Assembly: GCF_000621745.1 (NCBI RefSeq)
Contig: NZ_JHXK01000009.1
Location: 124,001 to 188,000 of the forward strand
Reading direction: 5' to 3'
DNA: 64,000 bases
DNA from: Clostridium beijerinckii HUN142
GTDB lineage: Bacteria > Bacillota > Clostridia > Clostridiales > Clostridiaceae
This document shows, piece by piece, positions 1,489 through 62,053 of this stretch (position 1 is its first letter; every line of letters begins with the position of its first letter). The translations under genes were made by a program, and so were the position numbers. The notes under the pieces were generated by a model. It ran no database searches and was not told the origin of the DNA. It saw nothing but the letters and a program-made list of their open reading frames with translations.

Positions 1489-3954
1489 CTAATGTTTAAT
1501 GTTCTTACTTATAATCTCCATAAAAGTTTCTGGGGGTACTACTCTTACGCTTTTGTTTTCTTTTAGCATGTTTGTAACTTTCTCTACATTACTTGTCTCT
1601 TTTGTCCATACATGAACATAAACAAATGTGTATGCTTCTGGATTATGGACATCTGTTTGTCCTAAACTAACTCTATCATTTATCTTTTTTACTAACTCTT
1701 CTTCGTCTTCAAGTGAATTCCAAAGTAGATCTCTGCAAGACACTAATGGTTTATTATTAGACCATAAAATTTCTCCTTTATAATTATCGTGTCTATGATA
1801 ATCAAGATAAAATAAACCTTTGATATTTGATTTTTTAGTAAACTCATTCCATAGCTCAACATCATGAAAGGCGGAATCATCTATTATTGATACGTAATTT
1901 TCATTTACTCTTTTCATATAACTATTTAATGATTCAACATATGAACTTAATTTATTACGTGGGAATTTGCTTGGATATATGTATCCATTTCCTGATGGAG
2001 CCACGATAAAATTATTCCTTGGATTTTCATTGCTTACGCTTTTATAATATAAATCAAACACAGTAGGGCTTAAATAATATAACGCTGGAGTCATAGACCA
2101 ACCTAAAGAAAGTTTGTCTCTATTTTCATAACCAAACCACTTAGGCGAACCATAATTAGTTCCAAGATTCCACTGCTGATTATCTCCATCTGACATTATA
2201 AAAGTAACATAGTGAACATTTTCTTCTTTAGGAACTGTTAATGAAGTTTTTTTAGTAATGCCAGGTTTAGGAAAAGCACTCAATGTAGTTAAATTATAGG
2301 ACCAATCTGCTGCAACCATGCTCACACCATGTTTTGACGCTGTACTCACGTTAATAAACTCATCTGGACCCCAGCCTAAACATGTTGGGTTACTATCCAT
2401 AGACGAAAATACCTTATCTCTAAGAGCTGTTTTATCTACACTTCCTTCGTAAAATATTAAAGATTTAGTCATTATGGCATAGTCCCTTAATGCATCAATT
2501 CTATCAGGAGAAAGCTCCATTACCATGGAATGATTTAGCCCTTTATTCCACAAATTATCATAGGCCCAATTTTCATCTGTACTTCTGCAATCTCCTTTAC
2601 TTTCTATACCAAGTTCCTTTATTTTAGGTTCTAGCTTTTCATCAATAACTATAGCGTTTTTAAGGCCTGCTAAGGAACAAGCATTATTTATTGAAGGATC
2701 TTTAGCTTCACCATTATAAAGCACGTACCCTTTTATATAGTCTTTATATATTTTTATTAGCTCCCAAGGATCTGATATCATTTCATAAGGTACATTATGA
2801 TTACTTTTTAAATCTTCCAACCATATTTTATAATCAGGCTGAGAAGAATTAAGTGTATATATTTGAAAAGAACAATGATTATTAACTAGCCCCTGAAGGC
2901 TAGTTATCATTGTTCTTTCACCAGGTGTCATCGAATCTAAAGAAATCGCATATAAAGATTTAGGAATTATATTATTTTTCATATAAACAGAATTTACATT
3001 TGATACCTTGATAGCATTAGATTTATCTGTTTCATCTATACTCGAAGCTTTACTATTCCACTCACTCCATTTAGTATCAAATGAGTCTCCGTTAGCTTTG
3101 CAATAATCATAGAATTTATTTAAGAATCCCATTCTTTCATTATTATAAAAAGACTTCAATGTAGTATCCTCAAAATTTGCTAATACCAATTGTCTTTTAA
3201 TTATGCCATCAGCATTGACATCTTTATAATTATTAATCATGTCGTACATTATCATGAAAGTAGATGTTCTTCCTATACCCTCTTTGCAATGAAAGTGAAG
3301 CCAAGAATCTTTTGGTTTATTTTTTATGAATTCCATAAAATAATCAACCATATCATCGGTAGGTATTCCACCATCTCTAACTGTTACTCTTTCATATCCT
3401 AAATTTTTTGATTTAGTAAGTTCTTCTTCGCTTTGAACTGTTTTAACATCCATAGTTTGTTTAGAATTATTATAAAAAGTTATAGGTTCATTTAATTTGA
3501 TACTTTTTAAATCCTCTTTTTCCTTAGCTATAACTTGATCTCTTGTAAGTCCCACATTAGCATTATTCTTTGCATCTGCCCAGCTAACTGAGAACCCATT
3601 TATGAATCCGTGACACTCTTGTCTTAAATCTATTACTGTGGTAGGGAGAGAAGTATCAATTGCCTTTATTAAAAGATCTATATTATTCCCTGAAAATTGT
3701 TGACTGCCAGAAATATTCAGCTTATCTAGCCCCTTAAGATCTAAATCTTTATTGTCCTTTATAACTGCTAAATCAGTAGTTTTTCGGAAATGCTTTGGTA
3801 AAACACTATTATAATTAACTGAGTCCAGAATTAGATGTACGCCATTATCCTTATCCGATGACACTTCAGCTATTGCATTGTTATTCACTGCAAATGAAAA
3901 AATACTGACTATCAGCAGCATTAAAATTGTAATCTTTTTAAAATTTTTCTTCAT
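1489..3954 (-). CDS. Secreted cysteine phytase (PTP-like) fused to a GxGYxYP putative glycoside hydrolase
   Basis: An 821-aa exported protein with a signal peptide at about 1-29 (lysines, hydrophobic core, AIAE). Residues 40-290 resemble PTP-like inositol-phosphate phosphatases: the P-loop is HCKEGIGRT at 222-230 (nucleophile C223, R229), and RDGGIP near 194 is a plausible general-acid loop. Residues about 320-821 match GxGYxYP-type proteins, with SDGDNQQW near 588 and the diagnostic GNGYIYP at 655-661. The family knowledge suggests release of phosphate from phytate or another inositol phosphate, while the second half is only a putative glycosidase. It is monocistronic with a clear RBS. Joining both activities in one secreted chain is unusual and points to a phosphorylated glycan or glyco-inositol substrate (inference). 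Confidence 0.8.
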   Translation of the reverse strand: MKKNFKKITILMLLIVSIFSFAVNNNAIAEVSSDKDNGVHLILDSVNYNSVLPKHFRKTTDLAVIKDNKDLDLKGLDKLNISGSQQFSGNNIDLLIKAIDTSLPTTVIDLRQECHGFINGFSVSWADAKNNANVGLTRDQVIAKEKEDLKSIKLNEPITFYNNSKQTMDVKTVQSEEELTKSKNLGYERVTVRDGGIPTDDMVDYFMEFIKNKPKDSWLHFHCKEGIGRTSTFMIMYDMINNYKDVNADGIIKRQLVLANFEDTTLKSFYNNERMGFLNKFYDYCKANGDSFDTKWSEWNSKASSIDETDKSNAIKVSNVNSVYMKNNIIPKSLYAISLDSMTPGERTMITSLQGLVNNHCSFQIYTLNSSQPDYKIWLEDLKSNHNVPYEMISDPWELIKIYKDYIKGYVLYNGEAKDPSINNACSLAGLKNAIVIDEKLEPKIKELGIESKGDCRSTDENWAYDNLWNKGLNHSMVMELSPDRIDALRDYAIMTKSLIFYEGSVDKTALRDKVFSSMDSNPTCLGWGPDEFINVSTASKHGVSMVAADWSYNLTTLSAFPKPGITKKTSLTVPKEENVHYVTFIMSDGDNQQWNLGTNYGSPKWFGYENRDKLSLGWSMTPALYYLSPTVFDLYYKSVSNENPRNNFIVAPSGNGYIYPSKFPRNKLSSYVESLNSYMKRVNENYVSIIDDSAFHDVELWNEFTKKSNIKGLFYLDYHRHDNYKGEILWSNNKPLVSCRDLLWNSLEDEEELVKKINDRVSLGQTDVHNPEAYTFVYVHVWTKETSNVEKVTNMLKENKSVRVVPPETFMEIISKNIKH

Positions 3955-18690: not shown

Positions 18691-18861
18691 TCGGCATATT
18701 AGAATGTTTTGTATCTTAAAACTTTCAGCAAAGAATACTCTATCTGGACTTAGTCCTCCTTAGTCACTTAAGTACTTTATTGCTAAAACTTACTATGAAT
18801 AGTATAATCTTTTTATGTCAAATACTTTAATTATATGAATGCAAACTGTAGTCTGCATTTA

Positions 18862-19045
18862 AGTAATAAGGGAATGGAGTGAAATTCTTCAACTACCCCA
18901 GTAACCGTGAAACTGACGAAATCAAAGGCACAATCAAAAATAACAAGTCCAATCTGTTATTTTTTGATTGTTTCTAACATGCCACTGAGAAATTGGGAAG
19001 GCTTGAAATTAGGATGAAGTTAAGTCGGGATACCTTGTTTTTATA
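18862..19045 (+). promoter_or_regulatory. Cobalamin riboswitch upstream of btuFCD
   Basis: The conserved core is readable: GGGAATGGAGTGAAATTC, then CCCAGTAACCGTGA, the B12-box context GCCACTG (18981-18987), GGGAAGG, and AAGTCGGGATACCT (19022-19035). A variable arm of perfect complementarity (ACAATCAAAAATAACA with TGTTATTTTTTGATTGT) lies inside. Binding of adenosylcobalamin is expected to favour the terminator at 19319 and shut off corrinoid uptake. Confidence 0.9.
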
Positions 19046-19318
19046 CACCGATAATATCCTCTGAGGGTGGGATATTAGGCACATGGCAATAAATTTTAAG
19101 TACAACGCTACCATGAATATTTTTCATCAGTCAAGAAGGTAAATTGATCTCATCATATCAAGTCTATTAGGTCAGTCTACTTCCGAAGGATAGTTGAAAA
19201 TAAGCTGGTAAATGAACTTGTTATTTTTTGAATGTGACTTAAGTAATCATGCGTTTTATTAAAATAAGACTTATAAGTTTTATTCTGATTTTTATAAGCA
19301 TGTTTATTATGCGTCTAT

Positions 19319-29289: not shown

Positions 29290-29540
29290 ATAATAACAAA
29301 ACATAATCACTTATATAAAATCAGTGAATAAATCTTCGCTAAAACGCCCCCTCTATCACTCGTAGAGTTTAGTCACATTAAAAAGATAACAATTCAATAT
29401 GATAGTCTATTTTCTATCACACTTCCTCGTCACATGCACATAATAGCCCTCTATGAGATGTATCTGTCTCGTCATCTTACGAAAATTTAAAATACACATC
29501 GCATCTTGGACTTGTCATTTTCTCTAATGTGCCCTATGGT

Positions 29541-29692
29541 GCAAAATATAGGCAGGTCTTCTGACTTAAGAATCATCATTTAAGTACGTCTTCCCTAATT
29601 AAAAGTGACATAATGTACTTAAGCTCCTCTAATACAGCTACGGGATAGTTTAGGAATTTCACCTAATTCCCTTTTAATTAATCAAAAATCAT
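29541..29692 (-). promoter_or_regulatory. Cobalamin riboswitch upstream of the cbi operon
   Basis: Read on the minus strand: GGGAATTAGGTGAAATTCC, then ATCCCGTAGCTGTATTAGAG, GTCACTTTTAATTAGGGAAG and AAGTCAGAAGACCTGCC. These are the conserved core blocks of the B12 riboswitch with the right spacing. B12 should repress cobalt uptake through the terminator at 29252. Confidence 0.93.
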
Positions 29693-29820
29693 TTTAAAAT
29701 TTCAATTAAGTTGATTTTAATTAAACCTATATTTTATTTATAAAATTTTGCTAATTTACATTTATATTCTTAACCATAACATTTTTAGTAAAAAAAATCA
29801 ATTCAATTCTCTACTGTATA

Positions 29821-29935
29821 GATATACAACTCTAAAACTAAATTTATGTGGTAACTTACCGAAATCATAAATATTTTGATTCCGAAAAACTATAGAAATA
29901 TATTTATGATTTCTAGTGAAGATATGAACTTAAGG
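29821..29935 (+). repeat. Structured dispersed repeat, compact full copy
   Basis: GAAATCATAAATAT (29861-29874) and ATATTTATGATTTC (29900-29913) form a perfect 14-bp inverted repeat around a 25-nt loop containing TTCCGAAAAACTAT. The flanks (AACTCTAAAACTAAATTT, GTAACTTACC and CTAGTGAAGATATGAACTTA) are shared with copies near 35.6, 44.85, 50.6 and 62.0 kb. No coding potential. The rest of 29693-30140 shows nothing else. Confidence 0.8.
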
Positions 29936-32745: not shown

Positions 32746-32860
32746 ACTAGCTCCAACGCCGCATTTTTCAAGCATATTCTGAAGAATATATATTCTTCTC
32801 TGGTAACATTCTAAAGAATACATATTCTTCAGAATAAATATGGTAAAGAATGTTCCCGAT
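32746..32860. repeat. Hairpin repeat, copy 1
   Basis: The left arm at 32775-32795 (TATTCTGAAGAATATATATT plus C) pairs with 32816-32836 (GAATACATATTCTTCAGAAT plus A) at 20 of 21 positions around a 20-nt loop. Together with the flanks (CACTAGCTCCAA, GCATTTTT) it recurs at 34601-34712. No coding potential. The remaining 32553-33190 stretch holds no gene; AAGTTAGTG near 33076 and its inverted partner near 33120 are the only other structure. Confidence 0.75.
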
Positions 32861-34600: not shown

Positions 34601-34712
34601 CACTAGCTCCAAACCCGCATTTTTAAGCATATTCTGAAGAATATATATTCTTCTCTGGTAGTATTCTAAAGAATACATATTCTTCAGAATAAATATGGTA
34701 AAGAATATTAGA
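34601..34712. repeat. Hairpin repeat, copy 2
   Basis: Same element as at 32746: arms at 34630-34650 and 34671-34691 with the same loop except for a few bases. Shared flanks are CACTAGCTCCAA and GCATTTTT on the left and AATATGGTAAAGAAT on the right. The two copies are about 1.85 kb apart in the same orientation. Confidence 0.75.
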
Positions 34713-35516: not shown

Positions 35517-35631
35517 AATATATCATCCTTCCTTGAATAATAAGGTTTTCTAAAATTATTATGGCACTATTACAACAAAATCCTTAATATGAATGTGATA
35601 TTGTTCATTCTTCAATGTGCATATAGATGTC

Positions 35632-35752
35632 ATACGTATATGGTAACTTACCGAAATTCAATATATTTCTATTCCAGGTGACTTATGAAATTTTCGCTGA
35701 AAGATTCTAAATTGGATCATGCAACTATTTCTGCATGCTCCAAATAGCTAAT
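35632..35752 (+). repeat. Structured dispersed repeat, variant copy
   Basis: Begins with TGGTAACTTACCGAAAT (35641-35657) as in the 29.8 kb copy. It then follows the 50.6 kb copy (ATTCC, CTTATGAAATTTTCGCTGAA, GATTCTAA) and ends in a hairpin, TTGGATCATGCA with TGCATGCTCCAA. The right basal arm is missing or diverged. It abuts the 3' end of the acetyltransferase gene and may act as its terminator on the minus strand. Confidence 0.6.
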
Positions 35753-35758
35753 TACTTT

Positions 35759-36349
35759 TCATATTTCAAATCCAGTCTTATCTTCTTCTGTAATTTCTCT
35801 AATTACTTTACATGGTACACCGGCAGCAATTACATTTGCTGGAATGCTTTTTGTAACTACACTACCTGATCCTATAATTGTATTATCTCCAATTGTGACC
35901 CCTTGATTTATATTAACTCCTGCTCCAATCCATACATTATTGCCTATGTTTACAGGTTTTGCATAGCAGCCCCCTGCTACTCGTTCTTTTGCATACGTTG
36001 CATGATTAGATGTATAAATTCCAACTCTTGGACCAAATAAAACATTGTCACCTATGTTTATCCCTCCACCATCTAACATTACGCAATCGAAATTGGCATA
36101 AAAATTATCTCCGATTGTAATATTAAAACCAAATTCACATCTAAATGTTGGTTCAAAGTGAACTCCTCTTCCAATACCTTTCAGTAACTTCTTTAATATT
36201 TCTTCTCTCTCATGTTGAGGTTTACCAAAACTATCATTATATTCATTTGTAAGAAATACTGTTTTTTCTCTTGCCTGAACCAATTCTGTTGTCAAATCAT
36301 TGTACATTTTACCAGATAAAATTAATTGTTTCTGTTCTTCCAAATTCAT
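35759..36349 (-). CDS. Sugar O-acetyltransferase (maltose acetyltransferase / LacA type)
   Basis: A 196-aa left-handed beta-helix acetyltransferase that transfers acetyl from acetyl-CoA to a sugar hydroxyl. An N-terminal Mac domain (MNLEEQKQLILSGKMYNDL) is followed by hexapeptide repeats (ITIGDNFYANFDCVMLDGGG, NIGDNVWIGAGVNI, VTIGDNTIIGSGSVVTKSIP). The catalytic His is in SNHATYAKER. ATG 36349 with GGAGGG 5 nt upstream is chosen over an upstream TTG frame. Family members probably detoxify excess sugars. Confidence 0.9.
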   Translation of the reverse strand: MNLEEQKQLILSGKMYNDLTTELVQAREKTVFLTNEYNDSFGKPQHEREEILKKLLKGIGRGVHFEPTFRCEFGFNITIGDNFYANFDCVMLDGGGINIGDNVLFGPRVGIYTSNHATYAKERVAGGCYAKPVNIGNNVWIGAGVNINQGVTIGDNTIIGSGSVVTKSIPANVIAAGVPCKVIREITEEDKTGFEI

Positions 36350-44760: not shown

Positions 44761-44848
44761 ATTAATCACTCCTAGTTTCTAAATTTCTAAAAATAATTAA
44801 AATCTATTTTGTATATAGATACCCAATTTACAAATTTGTTAAAACATT

Positions 44849-44877
44849 AAGTTTATATCTTCACTAGAAATTATATT
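44849..44877 (-). repeat. Structured dispersed repeat, right-end fragment
   Basis: AAGTTTATATCTTCACTAGAAATTATATT (described in part) matches the right flank and arm of the 29.8 kb copy in inverted orientation, with about three mismatches. The left part is absent. The rest of 44761-45136 holds an inverted repeat (ATTACAATGATA/TATCATGTAAT, near 44965-45000) and no gene. Confidence 0.5.
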
Positions 44878-45136
44878 CTGCTTATATATTCAACATATAT
44901 AGTCAAATGAATTTAGATAAAATAAATAGGGAATTCTGCCGCAATTTTTGTTATTAAAAACCATTACAATGATATATTTATATGTTATCATGTAATTGTA
45001 ATCATTCCCAATTCCTTGTTTGCAGAGTGATATTCATATATATCACTCCTCCTTACTCATTAACCTTCTTACTTACTAATCTTTCAAAAATTCCTTATAT
45101 CTCAACAAAATAGATTCTAATTTAAGCAAGTTTTTT

Positions 45137-50512: not shown

Positions 50513-50567
50513 TATAGATAAACAATTTAAGAATTAAACTTATTAGATGAACATATTTACAAAGTCG

Positions 50568-50805
50568 CTAAAACTTTGAGTTCATATCTGCACTAGAAAT
50601 CATAAATATATTTGTGTAGAAAACATTTGAAAATGAGCTGTTAAAGGTTCTTAGCCGTAGGTTGTTCCATTTTAGCTTGTCAAACTGAAAGTTGGAGCAT
50701 GCTAAAGTGGATGCAACCTGCTGCTTAGAACCTTCAGTGATATTTTCATAGCTTTTCGGAATCAAAATATTTATGATTTCGGCAAGTTATATGCATAAGT
50801 TCCGG
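50568..50805 (-). repeat. Structured dispersed repeat, expanded copy with nested hairpins
   Basis: The same 14-bp basal arms as at 29.8 kb occur here in inverted orientation: GAAATCATAAATAT (50596-50609) and ATATTTATGATTTC (50767-50780). Between them lies a 157-nt insert-like domain with nested complementarities: AAGGTTCTTAGC (50644-50655) with GCTTAGAACCTT (50723-50734), AGGTTG (50659-50664) with CAACCT (50714-50719), and CCATTTTAGC (50667-50676) with GCTAAAGTGG (50701-50710). This predicts a long branched stem. It begins 3-4 nt after the YibE/F stop codon. It is non-coding as far as I can see; a 65-codon frame through it is an accident of the fold. Confidence 0.8.
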
Positions 50806-50808
50806 TAT

Positions 50809-52029
50809 CTAAAGTGCATTAGAACTAGTTTCTTGTTCTTTAACGGAACTTTGCTTTCCTTGAAGCAGTTTTGCTGCAATAGCCGATACAATTGGAACTG
50901 TAAGTATAACTGCTAAGCTCCCGCAAACAGCATTAAGAATATCAATTGCAACACCATTTGAGTTAATCAATTGCCTAAACTGTACTTGATAAGAGTACAT
51001 TAAAATAAAAGAGAAAATGGATTCACCTAAGAACGCTAAAATAAGAGTATTACTCATAGTCCCCATCATATCTCGTCCAATATTCATACCTGAACTGAAT
51101 AATTCACTGAAGGAAGCCTCCTGATTTTGCTTCTTTAGTTCATTGATTGAGGTAGCAATAGAAATAGCAATATCCATTACAGCTCCAAGTGAAGCAATAA
51201 TGATACCTGTAAATAAAAGGTCTTTCACCTGCAGCTTGCTTTGTCCAGCAATGTTAAGCAATGCATCTGTATCTGAAGATGTATAACCAGATATACCTAG
51301 AATCCTACTAAAAATAAGCATAATTACAACTGATACAACAACACCTGCCACTGTTCCTAATACAGCGGACAAAGTTTTTCTGTCAAAGCCGCCTACTAGA
51401 AAGAGGGTTACGCAAGAAGTTACAATGACAAGCAATATAGTTGCCAAGACATCAGACACACCCATGAAAAGTAATGGAACAAAAATAAATAATACCGTGG
51501 TCAAGGTAAATATTATCCCTAGAACAGAATGAAAACCACGCCATCCACCTACTAAGCAGATTGCTCCAATAAAAAGGCCTATAAGTACAAGTAAAGGAAC
51601 AACACGATATGGTGCAAACATATAAACATTTACGTATGATTTATCATCAGTAGATGTATTAACAGACACCACAATATCCTGTCCATTATGAAGAATAAAA
51701 TTAGTATCATAATTAAGGGCATTATTAACCTTAAAAGTCTGTCCTTTATATTGCCCACTTTCTATAAGTACATCTACAATCTGTCTTCCAATGTAAAGCC
51801 CAGAAAACCCTGATGAATTTATTATCTGCTCATCAATTGAGAGAACCTTACCCTTTTCATAATGTACTTCTCCACCAGCTCCTGAACTAAATGGATTATA
51901 AATAGGCGTATGTGAGCTAAAAAGTATAGCCAGTATAATGTAAACAGACAAAATGGCAATAGATCCAATAATTTTGCCCCCTATCTTAATAGATGAAATC
52001 CAACCTAATTTTATATTCATAATATTCAT
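50809..52029 (-). CDS. YibE/F-family membrane protein
   Basis: A 406-aa protein with an N-terminal helix (about 17-38), an extracytoplasmic beta-rich domain (about 50-145, GLYIGRQIVDVLIESGQYKG), then about seven helices with the family landmarks GFHSVLGIIFTLTTVLFIFVP, LVGGFDRKTLSAVLGTVAGV, GAVMDIAISIATSINEL and GMNIGRDMMGTMSNTLILAF, cited as separate blocks. Function is unproven. YibE/F proteins are candidate transporters. The gene is 110 nt downstream of a secreted metallophosphoesterase and may be co-transcribed with it. Confidence 0.88.
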   Translation of the reverse strand: MNIMNIKLGWISSIKIGGKIIGSIAILSVYIILAILFSSHTPIYNPFSSGAGGEVHYEKGKVLSIDEQIINSSGFSGLYIGRQIVDVLIESGQYKGQTFKVNNALNYDTNFILHNGQDIVVSVNTSTDDKSYVNVYMFAPYRVVPLLVLIGLFIGAICLVGGWRGFHSVLGIIFTLTTVLFIFVPLLFMGVSDVLATILLVIVTSCVTLFLVGGFDRKTLSAVLGTVAGVVVSVVIMLIFSRILGISGYTSSDTDALLNIAGQSKLQVKDLLFTGIIIASLGAVMDIAISIATSINELKKQNQEASFSELFSSGMNIGRDMMGTMSNTLILAFLGESIFSFILMYSYQVQFRQLINSNGVAIDILNAVCGSLAVILTVPIVSAIAAKLLQGKQSSVKEQETSSNAL

Positions 52030-61977: not shown

Positions 61978-61978
61978 T

Positions 61979-62053
61979 ATAGATATCGAGCTTTAAAACT
62001 AAATTTGTGCGGTAACTTAACAAAATCATAAATATTTTGTTCCGAAAAACTAT
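61979..62053 (+). repeat. Structured dispersed repeat, left-half copy
   Basis: TAGATAT, then TTTAAAACTAAATTTGTG, GGTAACTTAACAAAATCATA and AATATTTTGTTCCGAAAAAC are collinear with the 29.8 kb copy at about 90% identity. The right basal arm is absent. It lies just after a terminator and about 105 nt before the next gene. Confidence 0.7.

Follow-up and report, generated by a model that had tools for sequence, protein, structure and literature searches.

As far as the portions of the literature considered here describe them, the known systems closest to the element reported in this work are RUP with IS630-Spn1 and the Correia elements (PMC2229807, PMC10969869). RUP, an element of pneumococcus that is mobilised by IS630-Spn1, is 107 bp long, is present in 108 intergenic copies, has TA as its target and forms a stable stem loop, according to the relevant part of PMC2229807. 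For Coxiella, and in work on MITE-derived small RNAs, MITEs have been proposed as a source of small RNAs in the sections of the two sources that concern this point (PMC5896051, PMC10969869). Bacterial MITEs are usually seen as shrunken transposons and their hairpins as by-products. Here, we analysed a stretch of 64,000 nucleotides from Clostridium beijerinckii HUN142, referred to as the window, which contains an element that is repeated many times per genome and has, as its interior, an extensive covarying fold whose loops hardly vary; this interior is found with ends of more than one kind. We consider it probable that this element is a MITE with IS630-type ends carrying, as its cargo, a strand-specific module of about 188 nt in which pairing is conserved. 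No description of the element was found in the literature that we searched.

RESULTS

One nearly complete copy and four relatives in the window

A reading of the window from its letters alone (the sequence-only reading) had named five places, near 29.82, 35.63, 44.85, 50.57 and 61.98 kb, as copies of a dispersed structured element. Related sequence is present at all five, but they are not equal copies: the one at 50.6 kb alone is nearly complete, and the other four are truncated or deleted relatives. The feature that had been placed at 50568..50805 is real but was drawn too short, the element running from about 50513 to 50813. The features are as follows, with the 50.6 kb copy read along its better-folding strand.

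50513..50813, + strand: whole MITE copy (placed by the match of the terminal inverted repeat [TIR] at C6:174513, which is window position 50513, and by the alignment of copies)
50513..50543, + strand: 5' terminal inverted repeat TATAGATAAACAATTTAAGAATTAAACTTAT, with 0 mismatches to the TIR pattern
50595..50782, + strand: putative structured RNA module running AGAAA...TTTCGG, scored in the window by model R1 at 213.2 bits (E 2.9e-37; this sequence is among those from which the model was built)
50783..50813, + strand: degenerate, shortened 3' terminal repeat, ending in TATCTAAA
29817..29978 (right limit uncertain), - strand: internal-deletion derivative with TIR and base helix only, loop of 25 nt (TIR at C6:153817)
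35622..35798, - strand: truncated or diverged relative with a TIR-like start, TATAGATG
44814..44880, + strand: fragment of the 5' end that retains the start of the base helix and a TIR with 5 mismatches
61978..62051, - strand: fragment of the 3' end that retains the 3' side of the base helix and a TIR with 3 mismatches

For two of these places, a perfect 14-bp inverted repeat had been described, GAAATCATAAATAT, and it was reproduced exactly, at 29861-29874/29900-29913 with a loop of 25 nt and at 50596-50609/50767-50780 with a loop of 157 nt; with up to 2 mismatches, the same word occurs 15 times in the window versus 5.97 expected. The shoulder words listed for the 35.6 kb copy are likewise present there. 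When run on the window, the covariance model found three of the five places, scoring the 29.8 kb copy at 51.3 bits (29859-29914, - strand) and the 35.6 kb relative at 30.5 bits (E 8.4e-4; 35651-35798, - strand) in addition to the 50.6 kb module; the two end fragments, near 44.85 and 61.98 kb, went undetected.

The hairpin at 50.6 kb is far beyond chance. On the + strand, positions 50521-50830 fold with -98.2 kcal/mol compared to a mean of -59.9 (sd 4.2) for 100 shuffles (z -9.1), and on the - strand with -80.7 kcal/mol (z -6.6). The stop codon of a YibE/F-like gene (50809-52029, - strand) is a TAG inside the 3' terminal repeat, at 50809-50811 on the - strand. At the gathering threshold, Rfam matches in the whole window are just two cobalamin riboswitches, at 29534-29745 (- strand) and 18826-19052 (+ strand), both of which lie away from the element. 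The window also contains a direct repeat of 90 bp (32765-32854 and 34620-34709), the two units of which are 96% identical and have internal complementary blocks.

Ends and copy number of the element

A blastn search of the own genome (G000) with the 50.6 kb copy gave 78 matches, a number that includes antisense matches to the same hairpins. Aligned in one orientation, the copies start with TATAGATA and end with TATCTATA, forming a 31-bp terminal inverted repeat. A degenerate pattern of this repeat, allowing up to 3 mismatches, matched 112 times in G000 versus 0 times for the reversed pattern, and in a second genome, G008, 137 TIRs were found with up to 2 mismatches. From TIR to TIR the elements typically measure 281-342 bp, deleted copies being shorter and copies with inserted blocks reaching up to 467 bp; pairings longer than this represent chance or adjacent elements. 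The copies thus have the size of a MITE (under about 500 bp, without a transposase gene of its own). The blastn search of plasmid and phage records gave no match to the element.

Several copies carry additional blocks. Different subfamilies have an inserted block of about 20 nt, TAACCACAAGGGTCATAATA, at roughly one and the same position in the arm (L114:1543-1750, L027:1246-1449 and others), and larger apical modules with common words (GTGAGA..TCGAACTT) are also seen in different subfamilies (L064 at C17:30288-30754, L158, L159, L161, L178 and L180). Judged from these words, it looks as if peripheral domains had been exchanged between subfamilies.

Relationship to an IS630-family insertion sequence

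In G000, PF13358 (DDE_3) matches were found at three contig ends only, each just inside a MITE-type TIR; that the contigs break at the transposase suggests that the IS is itself repeated. A complete IS is present in G040 (L194:619-1818), where two overlapping frames of 180 and 190 amino acids are bounded by the TIRs of the MITE, so that terminal inverted repeats are common to the MITE and a full IS630-family element at this locus as well as at the three contig ends. The first frame contains HTH_33/HTH_29 and the second DDE_3 (6.6e-27), and from this arrangement we infer a probable frameshift between them. The IS is directly followed by a MITE, with a TA common to both (near 1817). Where elements abut (nine pairs), the overlap of their repeats is TA at seven junctions and TATA at two, a pattern that would be expected of a TA target. 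Given that the same repeats enclose IS630 transposase genes and that TA is shared at the junctions of abutting elements, it is very likely that the IS630 transposase moves the MITE, which it would do in trans and into TA dinucleotides.

The assignment as an IS630-type MITE is well supported, and the earlier suggestion of a non-autonomous mobile element is borne out by ends that are those of an IS630-family insertion sequence. That reading had also set a match to a known IS-derived MITE against its own proposal. A related IS was indeed found, and MITE is the right term; yet the IS does not explain the conserved interior, since the interior also occurs between other ends. At E<=1e-10, 4 of the 68 genomes in the genus yielded a close relative of the transposase fragment, with stops in two cases, compared to 20 of the 68 for the module. 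More distant transposase relatives were detected in Clostridium sp. OS1-26, C. magnum, C. ragsdalei and others. Five genomes with IS relatives gave no match to the module, a negative that by itself says little, although the same model does match other genomes of the genus.

Comparison of 12 sites of G000 with G040 gave six that look filled (three of these calls resting on spacing alone and one made by eye), one without the element and five that could not be judged; the site of the window copy is filled in G040 too (two matches). The site without the element is C26:10606-10916, where G040 lacks a 668-bp block consisting of a MITE copy and a degenerate neighbour, while both flanks align between the two genomes at 94-97% identity. 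The right border of the block lies at the TATCTA end of the element and the left border at no recognised end. Such an absence is consistent with mobility and also with a deletion in G040. When the joined flanks of 12 G000 copies were compared with G040, the junction was crossed at the C26 site only, by a few letters, because the left flank there is itself element sequence. Where the gene at the site of the window copy occurs in G052, G076 and G056, the model found no module nearby, and the intergenic regions gave no alignment to the window.

Covariation in the interior module

The module comprises 188 nt. Its copies from G000 and G008 (n=48) can be aligned between AGAAA and TTTCGG, and some stretches, GTTGTT and CAAC for example, do not vary. 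For this first set, 49 cores were extracted, one chance match (C33_5048) was removed, and cores with apical inserts of more than 70 nt were left out. RNAalifold predicted 34 pairs for it, 16 of which have changes on both sides. On this structure, 96.6% of the cells pair, compared to 36-47% when the partners are slid by 1-3 columns, and cells changed on both sides number 154 versus 38.6 in shuffles. For a second set, 48 sequences from 16 genomes were picked by hand, leaving out large-insert copies and the weak G063/G044 matches described below. Aligned without structure, these gave 71 predicted pairs; at 50 of them, two or more Watson-Crick types occur, each in at least two sequences. The loop motifs stay nearly constant while the helices change; as read by eye from the alignments, the conserved internal loops of the rod are AGAAA/UUUCGG, GCAUUUGAAAA/UUUUC..UAGUCC, UUAGAA, GUUGUUCC/GGnUGCAAC and GCUUGUC/GGAGCAUGC.

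Compensatory base-pair changes beyond controls, as looked for in a structured RNA family, are thus present in the module. A covariance model with covarying pairs and further copies in related genomes were among the checks that had been proposed for the element, and both had a positive outcome. No family of Rfam release 15 matches the module at its gathering score, a match to a named family having been set against the proposal by the sequence-only reading; the matches listed in E-value searches are all below gathering and are mostly to miRNA-precursor hairpins, with one to 23S-methyl at 26.4 bits compared to a cut-off of 50.

Strand preference of the fold

In the first set, whose orientation was fixed by a sequence motif and not by energy, the same strand folds better in all 48 copies (two genomes), with a mean gap of 13.7 kcal/mol. 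The consensus folds of this set have energies of -22.6 versus -13.4 with G-U pairs and -9.9 versus -9.1 without them; for the 16-genome set the values are -114.8 versus -105.6 with G-U and -107.2 versus -104.4 without. Leaving out G-U pairs thus makes the two strands nearly equal. Even when the structure of the 16-genome set is derived without G-U pairs, it holds 112 G-U cells versus 42 A-C cells. In a set of 52 sequences across kinds of ends, 51 again fold better on this strand (by 10.9 kcal/mol on average; the exception is G082_L230), a count that is partly circular, as sequences first found by the model were oriented by model score. Simulated decayed palindromes, used as control hairpins, show the preference in 93 of 200 cases. 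With DNA parameters, the same strand of the set of 52 is better in 45, with a mean gap of 2.5 kcal/mol. One sequence in this set and in the tree below, L229, was assigned to the G082 ends on the basis of its module alone; those ends are missing from its own flanks.

Covariation, constant loops and folding preference for one strand together point to selection on a single-stranded structure, most simply RNA, so that a selected, strand-specific structured module appears well supported. Selection on structure had been suggested by the sequence-only reading, and strong compensatory change and strand-specific folding now speak for it.

Distribution of the module and other kinds of ends

In these genome-wide searches, the best candidates per genome were scored and weak relatives can therefore be missed. 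The model matched 20 of 68 genomes of the genus (E<=0.01), and 15 of these 20 have at least 32-38 matches each, antisense matches possibly included. Across the order, 18 of 225 genomes matched at E<=0.001, all in the genus of the window (1 of 56 genera), and a class-wide draw gave 5 of 391 at E<=1e-5, again in one genus of 222.

In two genomes, the module has different ends. In G082, it lies between GGGGCTGTCTCA repeats; the pattern GGGGCTGTCTCANAAT has 93 matches there versus 0 for the control, and 10 of 12 examined pairs of ends hold words of the module. Most of these pairs span 273-277 bp, deleted ones 152-181 bp and enlarged ones 432-441 bp; over its whole range of 152-441 bp, the examined sample (n=12) is too short for a transposase, and no ORF resembling a transposase was seen in L290. 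The G082 elements with GGGGCTGTCTCA ends may be MITEs of IS1182 type. In G021, the module is within an element of about 0.78 kb with yet other ends, present in seven copies, at least four of which (L255, L257, L259 and L260) contain a second, inverted hairpin. In L259 (reverse strand, ~2474-3256), the 5' sides of the two inverted module hairpins of such a 0.78-kb element face each other. In a tree of the modules, separate clades are formed by the G082 copies (support 1.0) and by those of G021, whereas the other subfamilies are intermingled across genomes.

The module was also detected on one viral contig, where it lies between portal-like and scaffold-like genes (gene names judged by eye); this copy, L335:3726-3915 (- strand), is situated in a cluster of phage structural genes, with its 3' end towards the stop of the portal-like gene. 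A second viral contig gave no match to the model, and a second viral pattern was also without a match. Weak single matches in G063 and G044 (L268, ~2295-2493; L269, ~2363-2566) have a similar fold and common flanks and are possibly a distant relative with other ends. No neighbour gene common to these single-copy loci was seen on reading them.

Gene neighbourhood and transcription signals

A stop codon within 90 bp, of a gene pointing in, was found at the 3' end of the module in 30 of 52 loci and at the 5' end in 3 of 52; these loci were listed by hand with approximate ends, and a few (L174, L175 and L178) do not have TATAGATA ends. Start codons pointing away occur near the 3' end in 8 and near the 5' end in 6 of the 52. 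When the ends were set by the TATAGATA repeats, using 48 of 69 TIR pairs and dropping 21 without clear orientation, the stop counts were 19 versus 2 of 48, or 18 versus 2 of 46 without the double entries of L187 and L130. One of the two genes running into the 5' end is the IS transposase itself (L194). With the other two kinds of ends, the counts are 5 versus 3 of 11 and 5 versus 4 of 7, both being small numbers. Since these show no such orientation bias, the bias towards gene ends may belong to the target choice of the IS630 vehicle.

Upstream of the module, -10-like boxes are present in 16 of 54 cases versus 14.7 in shuffles, which is no enrichment, and scanning the window copy for promoters yielded 2 sites versus 1.8 in shuffles, and no terminator. 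With both measures at the level of shuffles, a promoter of the element's own is not supported. Sequences resembling intrinsic terminators were noticed, by eye only, beside the 5' end of several copies.

DISCUSSION

The data presented here lead us to favor an element in which an IS630 transposase would supply mobility and the interior would be the part that matters to selection. It appears that the module rather than the ends is the unit under selection, as its fold is kept by compensatory changes and it is present in elements with other ends. On one strand, the module would form a long rod in which the internal loops are conserved. If this strand is transcribed, the rod could be bound or processed, via these loops, by a host RNA-binding factor, and as a result the element would benefit or its insertions would be tolerable. 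We infer that binding or processing of this kind is the most likely mechanism, and we put it forward tentatively. A bolder version is conceivable but rather unlikely: the RNA module, and not the ends, may be a selfish, vehicle-independent unit that several unrelated transposon ends have acquired, that promotes its own spread or tolerance by way of a host RNA-binding factor and whose peripheral modules are exchanged between subfamilies.

The hairpin might instead act in cis, in the 3' untranslated region of mRNAs, as a stabiliser, an RNase III site or a terminator, in the manner of Correia/NEMIS or ERIC elements and with no separate role as a noncoding RNA. The stop codons pointing into the 3' end of the module at 30 of 52 loci and the stop that the window copy provides for the YibE/F-like gene agree with this, as do the RNase III cleavage of Correia elements and the RNase E effects of ERIC reported in the relevant part of PMC10969869. 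However, the neighbouring gene usually enters the module at its 3' end, and read-through would therefore transcribe the less stable strand, whereas the pairing is tuned on the other one; in addition, the orientation bias is missing from the other two kinds of ends (5 versus 3 of 11 and 5 versus 4 of 7, with numbers that are small). We thus regard a purely cis-acting role as a serious alternative but an unlikely one.

Two further explanations place the pairing at the DNA level. If one strand formed a single-stranded hairpin bound by a transposase or a replication protein, a preference for one strand would be expected, and DNA parameters do favor the same strand in 45 of 52 sequences; however, the mean gap falls from 10.9 to 2.5 kcal/mol with these parameters. 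IS630-type ends act as double-stranded DNA, which also counts against such a hairpin, and we consider it improbable. In a plain palindromic MITE, the two arms would be kept alike by template switching or gene conversion without any selection, and long stem loops are indeed usual in bacterial MITEs, according to the portion of PMC2229807 on this subject. This would not account for helices that vary while the loop motifs stay, for the 112 G-U versus 42 A-C cells seen even on a structure derived without G-U, or for the simulated decayed palindromes, which show no strand preference (93 of 200). The excess of G-U over A-C and these controls disfavor maintenance as a DNA-only palindrome, and we hold this explanation to be very improbable. 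A MITE carrying a structured, strand-specific module thus remains our preferred reading.

The module is a candidate RNA family that is absent from Rfam, and its copies are naturally occurring compensatory variants with which one could test whether the RNA of a mobile element is functional. In addition, the recurrent hairpins beside gene ends in these genomes now get a name.

The comparison with known systems shows both shared and distinct features, taking the latter from the portions of the sources considered here. Similar to RUP, the Clostridium element shares its terminal repeats with a full IS630-type element, probably targets TA and is predicted to form a stable stem loop (PMC2229807); unlike the 107-bp RUP, it is typically 281-342 bp long and contains a 188-nt covarying module that is also found between other ends. 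The Correia/NEMIS elements of Neisseria are likewise MITEs with TA termini whose transcript is a long stem loop (PMC2229807, PMC10969869); the likeness is one of description, and the sections of these sources considered here make no mention of diverged subfamilies with compensatory changes or of several kinds of ends. For the Coxiella MITEs, a role as a source of small RNAs was proposed in the corresponding sections, whereas the evidence for the Clostridium module is structural covariation and not expression. With the RNA families of Rfam, the module shares a strong structure, but none of them matches it at the gathering score.
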